From Romanomermis culicivorax (Eukaryota; Nematoda; Enoplea; Mermithida; Mermithidae): a stretch of DNA of 64,000 bases. The stretch lies in assembly GCA_963922205.1 (NCBI GenBank), contig CAWUHX010000145.1, positions 806,001-870,000 of the forward strand, written 5' to 3'. Position numbers and translations under genes: made by a program. Under the pieces are notes generated by a model. The model was given only the letters and a program-made list of their open reading frames with translations, ran no database searches and had not been told where the DNA came from. Within the stretch, counting starts at the first letter, position 1; each line of letters opens with the position of its first letter. Below, piece after piece: positions 1 through 3,290 of this stretch.

Positions 1-830
1 GGATTGTGAATGACGCCTTCACACGGAACTCGAAGTTCCTTGAACTGAAGAAAGGATTTCTCCCAGTTCAAACTGACACAATTGAAGCGTCCGAGGAAGT
101 TCGTCCCCAAGACAAGTTCAGCCGAACAGTTCTCTTGAACTTGGACTTGAATCCGTTCAGAGACATCAGCCACTGTCACCTTGACATAGGCAGCGCCCAG
201 CAGTAGAATCGGAGACCCATTGGCTGCTATGGGGCGAGCCCTCGTTTCTGTGAGTACCAAGTCGGGGAACTGGACCGCCAACTTGTGATCCAGCAGCGAG
301 AAAACTGCTCCAGTATCAATTAGAGCTTTGGCCTCTACCCAATTGTTCAGTAGAACTTTGATATGAGGGGTCCTCATTTCAGTGGGGTAGAAAGCTGATA
401 CTACATGGCCTGGGTCAGGCACAGAGTCATCAAAGCTCGACTCTGGCGCATTGGTTCGCTTTGGTATTGGCAAGCCAGTGCGTCTGAGTAAACCTACCAG
501 AGCATAACCAACCGATGTTTCCGGATTGGTCTTAGGAGTGGGGTGAACCTGAACAGTAAGTACATGGTCTGACCTTTCTCCTGAGCTCTGAGTAGCGCCT
601 AGTGATTCGACCTCAGCATCAGAGAGTGGTGGCACCTCTAGTACAGGGGATGCAGGTGCATCAGAATCACTAGGCTCGCGAAAGCGGCCTTTCTCTAGTG
701 TAACTGGAGAATTTCCAGGTGGTGGCCTAGGACAGTTTGATCCTGACCTGGCCATAAAATGACCACTAGCCCATCTAGAAGAAGTCCGGCTTCCTCTTGT
801 CGACCCAGGTGATGAGGCAACTGAGGAGGC
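1..830 (-). CDS. Linker plus second retropepsin (partial)
   Basis: Open minus-strand frame from just after a TGA at 833-831 to the left edge. The first ~150 codons form a Ser/Pro/Thr-rich linker. A retropepsin-like domain follows: the active-site triad DTG is encoded at 317-309 within ALIDTGAVFSLL, and the second conserved motif LVLGTNFLGRF lies at about 118-86. That spacing is normal for a complete retroviral-type aspartic protease. The frame is the same as that of the upstream envelope-protease ORF, so it may have been one polyprotein. In Ty3-like elements reverse transcriptase would follow directly. No disabling change is visible in this domain. It is odd because a first complete protease lies only ~330 codons upstream. 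Confidence 0.75.
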
Positions 831-872
831 TCACGAGGGTGGCCGAGAAATGGACGAAGTCCTTGATCTTGA

Positions 873-3290
873 TCAGGACCCGGACCTGTGGAAGGCCCTT
901 GACAGTGAACGTGCGTTCTCCCACCAGGGTTCGATCTGATCAATCTCGGCCGCTGTCAAGAGAAGTGGCAGCTCTACCGCATTCAATCGACAGACATGTT
1001 GTTGGTAATCAAACGTAATATTCTGGAATTGTTCTAGGAAGTCCAATCCAAGAATCAGATCGACCGGTGCCCAGAAAGGAGACGTAGTCTTACACACATG
1101 GAGATGTATATCTACTCATGTGTGTGGCTGACGGGTTCCGGGCAACATTTTCTCATACGGTCCTGAAAGGAGGGTATGAACAGCTTTACCATTGATACTC
1201 ATCAATGGGTTAAAGTCGTGATGTTGCTGGAAGGCCATCGCCGCCTTCGGACTTTCTTTGATCAGCGCTTTGTGCAGGCGTTGACTAATGATAGTCCGTG
1301 GGCAACCAGTATCAAGGAAAGCAGGGGTTTCCTTGTGGTCAACCAGTACGACAAAACACGGAGTGATCCTATCTAACTGAGTTGGCACATCGTTCTGTAC
1401 GTAATGAAAACCTACCCAACGTTGAACTTTCCGGAGGAGGTTCAACGGAGAGTATTGGCTAACAAACCGAACCTGTCTTTTCCGCAGGCGGTAACTGAGG
1501 TAATAGGAGATCCCAGCGTAGATGAGAAATCCTGTACCGGCCAGCACTGTCAGGGCAATAAGTGTGTTAAAGATCAACTGCACTGGTCCACTCAAGAGAG
1601 ACTGTAAGCCCTGCATGAGGTTGTGCTGTTGGCCAGTAATCACGTGGTTTGCTGCCAGACCAACACCTTCCAGTGAGGATTTGATGTCAGTTCCCACCCC
1701 TGCAACCGCTTGATAGATAGTATCGGGTTGGAGGGATAGACCAGCGGTAAAGTTTACCAACCGGTTTAAGACCGCTTCAATCTGCTCAGTCTTGTAAACG
1801 TACTGTTTAAAGAAAGCAAAACTTGAAGGGGTCATTGCCAACTGATCATGGAAGAGCGCAGGAGCATCAAAGTGAGTGACGTTGAAGCGCTGTTTCCAGA
1901 ACAGCTCAAGCGGAATGTGGCTCACATGGACCGTGCCAGACTCAGTAAACCAGCCAGAGCGATTTCGGAAAATCCCTGTGAAGTGGTGGTCACACGGCAC
2001 CTTCGGACTGAATTTAGTGAGATCCGGGCCACCGGGGGTGGCAAAATAAATGGTACCGCCAACCTGTACAGGTGGATACTTGTAACAGGTGTCCCCCACT
2101 CGGTACAAATGGTAGACATAAGTGGCGTTGACCTTTTGACACGGCCATATCGTCAGTGCTTCACCCGTAAATTCCGCCGTCAGATCATTCCTTTGAAGGA
2201 ATGCCCGGGCTCCGAGTGTAGGGTCAAAACGAAGCAACTGCCAAGTCAGATCAAGGTAGCGTTGAGCGTGAGAGCACAACTCAAGCCACATGAATCGAAA
2301 ATTGTTAATTTCCGACTCCTTGATCTGCTGAGCCAGATAGTTCAGTTTGGCATTGACGGGGTCAGGGACGGAATCCTTTGCCAATCCGAACAACCTGTGG
2401 GTCAAATTAAATCTTCCATGGATGCGTAGAAGAAGACCCTGATCCATTCTTACTGTATTCGACCGGAGGTCAGGACACAGCCGAAACATACGAGAGTTTC
2501 CCGGGATCTTCAGGGCAACGTGCAAATCATCGATGATGATGTGGTTCCCTGATACAGACGCAGTGTAATTACCCTGTGGGCGATAATGACACTGTGCTGT
2601 AAAGTTTGTAGCAGGCCAAACAATTACCCTGTCGAGAGTAATGCATTGACCTGCAGTGGGACTGCATCCACCTACATCTCCTAAGGTACTTAGAGCTGTA
2701 GTGCCATCCCACGAAGCAACCTGTCCCTCCTCGATGAAGAGGTTAGTCACTGTCTTGCAGACGTCATTGCAGCACCATGAGTACATCACCTCCAGTGTTT
2801 GGTTAGTGCTATAAAAGCCAGGACGTATTTCCACGAGCTTTTGTAAACCAAACACCTTTGAGCGATGTGCCAGTGTACACGCCGCAGGCGCGAGGTGCTG
2901 AGTGGTTATGACGTCTGCAATAATGCCCCTAGATCCGAAAAAACCAGTATTCGTGCATACTTTCCGATTCCGTAAGGTACATTTCCATGCTTTAGTCGTG
3001 ATTGGATCAGAAATAGGTACATATACTGTAACATTCATGCGTCGTGGACTCCACGAAGATTTTGGTGGTTTGCATTCAACTTTTTGAGGTAACTCAAGTG
3101 GATGACCGCTTCTTGAAAGACCACAAAATTGGTATTGAGTAGCATGTGTTGCAGAGCTCTTTCCTAAGAACAGTAGTGTTACGAAGGCCCAGTTTATTAC
3201 AAACAAAATATTTACAAACGGTGTTTGCAAATTTACACCAAAGTTTACAGTTTTCACCCGTCCGGCGGCTTCATTCTTCGACGTCATCAT
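873..3290 (-). pseudogene. Envelope-like glycoprotein fused to first retropepsin
   Basis: Open from before the ATG chosen here (3290-3288) to a TGA at 1118-1116, then open again in the same frame to a TGA at 875-873. The frame is also open upstream to 3488 but without an ATG. The protein starts with a hydrophobic signal-like stretch (NILFVINWAFVTLLFLG), then a cysteine-rich ectodomain with many N-glycosylation sites, then one C-terminal membrane segment encoded at about 1579-1502, followed by a basic tail (RLRKRQ). This is the layout of a type I viral fusion glycoprotein. With no stop between, it continues into an aspartic protease with DTG at 1313-1305 and LILGLDFL at 1057-1034. The TGA at 1118-1116 falls inside the protease. 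The glycoprotein's viral source and fusion class cannot be told by eye. Confidence 0.75.

Follow-up and report, generated by a model that had tools for sequence, protein, structure and literature searches.

An envelope gene in frame between gag and protease in Ty3/Gypsy-type retroelements of the nematode Romanomermis culicivorax

Background

Retroviral genomes are regarded as having one fixed plan, gag-pol-env, since the RNA from which env is made is a spliced one, and in the known errantiviruses and other known env-bearing Ty3/Gypsy elements env follows pol. A stretch of 64,000 nucleotides (nt) from the genome of the mermithid nematode Romanomermis culicivorax (C145:806001-870000, on contig CAWUHX010000145.1 of a 359 Mb source assembly; in the following "the window") raises the question of whether env can also have its place inside gag-pol. 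The window carries part of a long terminal repeat (LTR) retroelement in which an initial annotation, made from the letters alone, had placed an envelope-like gene between gag and the proteases, in the same frame. If ancestral rather than a rearrangement of this copy, such a placement would be an unusual genome plan. Here we ask whether the order is shared by intact copies and by related families, and how an element of this kind might be expressed.

Results

Gene order in intact copies

The element in the window is the middle part of a Ty3/Gypsy-type LTR element and occupies positions 1-6499 of the minus strand. A 790-codon frame on this strand (1116-3488), which matches PF24664, leads without a stop, as had been described from the letters, from a signal-like segment through an ectodomain and a membrane segment into a protease-like domain, in which the motif DTG is present. 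Scored with this 790-residue frame, the genome contains at least 57 copies, each of them aligned from residue 1-3 through to residue 790 at 94-100% identity; the matches are contiguous across the junction of Env and protease, and the repeat boundary expected there of two joined elements was not seen. At least 15 of the 57 copies are stop-free within one frame of 3,014-3,018 codons, which encodes Gag, Env, protease(s) (PR), reverse transcriptase (RT), RNase H (RH) and integrase (IN) in this order. Pfam scans in pieces, which covered the second protease (PR2), RT, RNase H, H2C2 and the integrase core in three copies and Env and gag in one copy each, returned PF19259, PF13975, PF00078, PF17917/PF17919, PF17921 and PF00665 in succession, i.e. 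the domain content of Ty3/Gypsy elements, with RT, RNase H and integrase following Env and protease in all three copies.

Nine copies, read in pieces, are bounded by LTRs of 1,420-1,452 aligned bases with 96.6-99.9% identity and the termini TGTCAC...GTGACA; target duplications of 4 bp were seen by eye in seven of them and none in C201 and C6. TG..CA ends with duplications of 4-6 bp are those of Ty3/Gypsy elements (Metaviridae), and the LTR-bounded copies rule out a host gene with introns. Only 461-465 bases separate the end of pol from the 3' LTR in all nine copies, which is too short for a second env and contradicts a position of env after integrase; the errantivirus-type arrangement is thus absent, env lying upstream of PR. 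The string DGPYLVTNV, noticed by eye, is a candidate for the GPY/F-like motif that follows the integrase core. The element is an env-bearing Ty3/Gypsy (Metaviridae-like) LTR retroelement with env in frame between gag and protease. In copy C124 a leader of about 4.1 kb without long open frames lies between the 5' LTR and gag.

Related families and metagenomic polyproteins

Among 4,338 candidates of similar length searched for Env relatives, the homologous protein P0001 was the sole match at E<=1e-3. It scored 81 further places in the genome at 37-41% identity, 40 of which are stop-free in frames of 2,400-3,100 codons. Ten of these places were chosen because their frames reach 2,405 codons or more, a choice that selects for openness and leaves gene order unselected: Env runs into protease in one frame at all ten, the same frame reaches gag at the three loci checked upstream, and RT-RH-IN follows at the two checked downstream. 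Five of the 120 proteins listed from an RT search of 6,426 proteins also carry PF24664, and the three of these metagenomic proteins that were scanned contain capsid-type, Env, protease (weak in P0056), RT, RNase H and integrase domains in order. In IMG/VR no Env relative was confirmed.

An RT tree was built from 47 rows (48 hand-picked from 125, P0013 being left out as short; no BEL/Pao reference is among them). The eight env-bearing rows fall inside one clade of 11 rows with support 99/97, on which the env label requires three changes. The three other rows are P0032, in which Gag and PR are present and the Env ectodomain is missing, P0027, which starts in the membrane segment ahead of PR, and P0064, which starts in RT. 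We read this history as one gain, one loss (P0032) and two fragments (P0027, P0064), a reading that goes beyond what the tree alone shows. A signal-like and a membrane-like segment seem, by eye, to be kept between Gag and protease in P0032.

The Env glycoprotein

In the window, Env extends over 3290-1400 of the minus strand (PF24664, E 1.3e-15) and comprises an ATGATG at 3290 that overlaps the end of another frame (X, see below), a signal-like segment at about 3215-3140, an ectodomain to about 1580, a membrane segment at about 1580-1500 and a short tail. In every family a hydrophobic segment ahead of the first conserved cysteine and another ahead of the protease were seen by eye. All 12 rows of the Env alignment (A1) match PF24664 (Monjiviricetes_fusion), which places them in this family, while BDV_G is matched by eight and Glycoprotein_B by three. 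No Env relative with a solved structure was found by sequence search at E<=1. An AlphaFold model of Env was poor (pLDDT 58.2, pTM 0.35); with it, Foldseek ranked herpesvirus gB highest in the PDB (E 1.2e-14, TM about 0.3) and the Keturi virus glycoprotein highest among viral models (E 3.5e-25). Judged by these profile and model matches, Env is a captured fusion glycoprotein of the Monjiviricetes type, probably of class III.

The ratio of nonsynonymous to synonymous substitution (dN/dS) of Env is 0.11 between C38 and C124 and 0.09 between C49 and C357; gag has 0.15 and the tail plus PR 0.18. By these ratios Env is under purifying selection, and together with the 57 scored copies and the ten loci in frame they put the Env-protease fusion beyond chance.

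An 86-nt intron and an overlapping frame

At the end of gag in the window's family, an 86-nt GT-AG intron (GTAAAC...TTACAG; window 3952-3867, minus strand) is present in 12 of 14 copies and exactly absent in the other two (C240 and C24). C24 retains both LTRs (99.2% identical), a CTTG duplication and env, and as an intronless complete provirus it implies reverse transcription and integration of an RNA that had been spliced. On the testimony of such genomic copies, the RNA of the element is spliced at this intron. In the sister family C38, one of the ten further loci, the corresponding place is taken by a GT-AG intron that is likewise 86 bases long and differs in sequence. Across the 12 copies that carry the intron, variable positions number 22 of 86 in the intron, 12 of 120 before it and 35 of 300 after it.

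The intron length leaves a remainder of 2 when divided by three, and splicing joins gag to a second frame, here called X, which forms an 805-codon Gag-X frame in both intronless copies. X has 197 codons in C124 and corresponds to window positions 3866-3271 (minus strand), the family's end ...GAATGA falling at 3273-3271. Between families X is 75% identical with a dN/dS of 0.11, vs 0.97 when these bases are read in the Env frame; within the family (14 copies) the polymorphism ratio (pN/pS) is 0.21, vs 1.02 in the Env frame. The Env frame is nevertheless free of stops through intron and linker, as read over 506 bases, in every intron copy but that of the window (11 of 12); in the copies shown, both remaining frames of the intron contain stops, apart from one frame of the window copy. 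In two families where no X frame was found, selection on the linker in the Gag-Env frame is purifying (omega 0.34).

The two proteases

PR1 (window 1390-1000, minus strand; DTG at 1313, LILGLDFL) is weak by profile, its best match to PF13975 (E 0.0011) lying below the cut-off, and has a dN/dS of 0.05; by eye it was seen only in the window's family and in C38, directly after Env. PR2 (window 359-87, minus strand, residues 133-223 of the frame 3-755) reached 28.1 bits with PF13975 against a cut-off of 28.2 (E 3.1e-6) and is the protease present in the other families. BLASTP between the two, considered as possible recent duplicates, aligned 21 residues only.

Decay of the window copy and further features

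The window copy itself is a dead, truncated and decayed element. All coordinates here refer to the minus strand: what remains of the long untranslated leader, its 3' part, lies at 6499-5616, where the blastn match to an intact copy stops, and the copy is thus truncated at its 5' end at 6499 and lacks the 5' LTR. Gag, with a Ty3-type capsid (PF19259, Ty3_capsid, E 2.9e-9) and a zinc-knuckle-like Cys/His region, lies at 5615-3954, residues 1-553 of full gag mapping to these positions by tblastn with 92.6% identity and one gap. Stops interrupt gag (4842-4844), the gag-env linker (two), X (3370-3372) and PR1 (1116-1118); pol continues beyond base 1, to the left, with its frame broken, and the 3' match to intact copies ends short of the 3' LTR. 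The initial annotation of Env running into a protease is confirmed, with the correction that the copy in the window is broken and its first protease-like domain weak.

Elsewhere in the window, frames at 38642-39703 resemble a Gypsy-type integrase belonging to a different element, a 21-base unit is repeated in tandem 33.6 times at 26674-27375, and two tandem arrays of a 98-base unit, seemingly the same unit in opposite orientation, lie at 49607-50033 and 60373-61111. An RNA-family scan of the window found two tRNAs only. Four successive units of TTAGGC, the nematode telomere unit, occur 14,221 times on one strand of the genome and 14,795 times on the other, the reversed pattern 0 and 11 times, which points to a nematode host, while a search for SL1 RNA gave no match either in the genome or for its controls; many such arrays lie inside contigs and not only at their ends (e.g. 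C3:2004958 and C4:1310849 among the places listed).

Discussion

A proposed polyprotein with Env in its middle

Taken as a whole, the observations are best explained by a Gag-Env-PR-RT-RH-IN frame with a captured env, a plan ancestral to a clade, whose product would be threaded through a membrane as one polyprotein and whose expression, in the window's subclade, would be switched by intron retention; we assign this joint explanation a probability of about 0.72. Unspliced RNA would be translated into a single Gag-Env-Pol polyprotein, which the internal signal segment of Env and its C-terminal anchor would thread through the membrane of the endoplasmic reticulum (ER). Because of the placing of the signal and membrane segments, Gag is expected in the cytosol, the Env ectodomain in the lumen and Pol again in the cytosol; the structural polyproteins of alphaviruses, by analogy, have a similar membrane arrangement. 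Signal peptidase and the protease(s) of the element would then perform the cleavages. Where the 86-nt intron is spliced out, in the window's subclade, Gag would be shifted into X and Env-Pol excluded, so that intron retention would set the ratio of Gag-X to Gag-Env-Pol in place of the ribosomal frameshift by which other elements make less Pol than Gag. Families in which no X frame was found must set the amounts of Gag and Pol in another way.

Several observations weigh against this explanation. In a DNA search of the genome for more intronless copies, the best 40 matches all carry the intron, and spliced genomes are therefore rare. The linker in the window's family is free of amino-acid constraint in the Env frame (pN/pS 1.02), and P0032 is a relative within the RT clade that has Gag and PR and no Env ectodomain. 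Support for the explanation comes from shuffling the synonymous codons of X: in 20,000 trials the Env frame stays open in only 0.56% for C124 and 0.97% for C38 (partial X). Both families had, however, been chosen for long open frames, which biases the test towards openness. C36 and C10b were not chosen for long frames, yet both are open over 506 nt; the window copy is not. Finally, and again on the contrary side, Env in the window's family begins with an ATGATG that overlaps the last part of X and fits a restart of translation after X, and some families have a methionine just ahead of the signal segment. Ribosomes finishing X on spliced RNA might accordingly restart at the overlapping ATGs, Env-Pol being made separately and the long frame not read through; indeed, X ends in this family with GATGATGATGACGTCGAAGAATGA, which contains ATG triplets in the Env frame. 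We regard this as unlikely, since the sister family C38 has no such methionine in the Env frame, the linker is stop-free in this frame in both families, and no restart is needed in the families whose linker is direct. In C38 no methionine was seen by eye between the stop of X and the signal segment, so that Env there needs no start of its own.

Splicing might also remove Env itself, as a larger alternative intron joining gag to PR, which would give a Gag-Pol without Env and allow Env to be made from one RNA class only. An element that clearly uses splicing, and P0032, in which signal and membrane segments (by eye) stand between Gag and PR and the ectodomain is missing, lend this idea some appeal; against it, the matches of the scored env copies continue unbroken from env into protease and no copy exactly lacking env turned up, though no direct search was made, and we hold it to be somewhat less probable still than a restart after X. 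That the order arose in a rearranged copy, by nested insertion or by the joining of two elements, would suit the truncation of the window copy at both ends, but is refuted by the order common to 57 scored copies, nine LTR-bounded copies, ten further loci (two of them followed to RT-RH-IN) and three metagenomic proteins that run from gag to integrase; we give it next to no credence. The same sharing across copies and families supports the view of the plan as unusual and ancestral. The Gag-Env-Pol polyprotein with its captured env accordingly stays our preferred explanation.

Comparison with known elements

With errantiviruses and other env-bearing Ty3/Gypsy elements the present family shares a Ty3-type gag, PR-RT-RH-IN, LTRs and a captured viral env; it differs from them in that env is placed, in the same frame, between gag and PR. 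In the BEL/Pao elements Roo, Tas and Cer-7, env lies downstream of the polyprotein, and chuvirus glycoproteins have been captured by BEL/Pao elements such as Anakin in mosquitoes (PMC7642597). Anakin thus resembles our element in the capture, by an LTR element, of a glycoprotein from the same broad virus group, but it belongs to BEL/Pao and not to Gypsy, and the text concerned describes no Gag-Env-Pol frame (PMC7642597). As to its own pol type, our element has a Ty3 capsid and Gypsy-type Pfam RNase H and integrase domains; the RT tree includes no BEL/Pao reference. For Gypsy elements, no clear evidence of such a capture is reported (PMC10084718).

Splicing also separates Gag from Gag-Pol in the Ty1/Copia element Evade, where it yields the shGAG RNA and intron retention keeps Gag-Pol (PMC8892269), as described there through a long intron and early polyadenylation, whereas here an 86-nt intron changes the frame and the rest of the RNA is kept. 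Cer1 of C. elegans is likewise a nematode Gypsy-type element with spliced RNA and no stop between gag and pol, but makes an extra protein, CERV, from its own spliced RNA, and the available passages describe no Env between gag and pol (PMC10309623). Troyka has a single Gag-Pol frame, but 3-bp duplications, CG..CG ends and no env (PMC12440569), features that our element does not show. In the literature searched, itself seen in part, we recognised no account of an env located between gag and protease, which is no proof of absence; the parts of the element are known, while the Gag-Env-Pol plan was not recognised there.

Conclusions

Going further, we tentatively propose, at a little under even odds, a clade of animal retroviruses, or of elements resembling them, in which Gag, Env and Pol would be made in one membrane-threaded polyprotein and Pol would be carried into particles on the Env tail; in one branch, a retained mini-intron would have replaced frameshifting as the switch from Gag to Gag-Pol, with an overprinted second C-terminus of Gag. 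A clade with env inside gag-pol, strong purifying selection and near-identical LTRs shows that a plan other than gag-pol-env works, and with it one can test how a polyprotein whose middle part is directed to the ER may be sorted and how the amounts of Gag, Env and Pol may be set without frameshifting.
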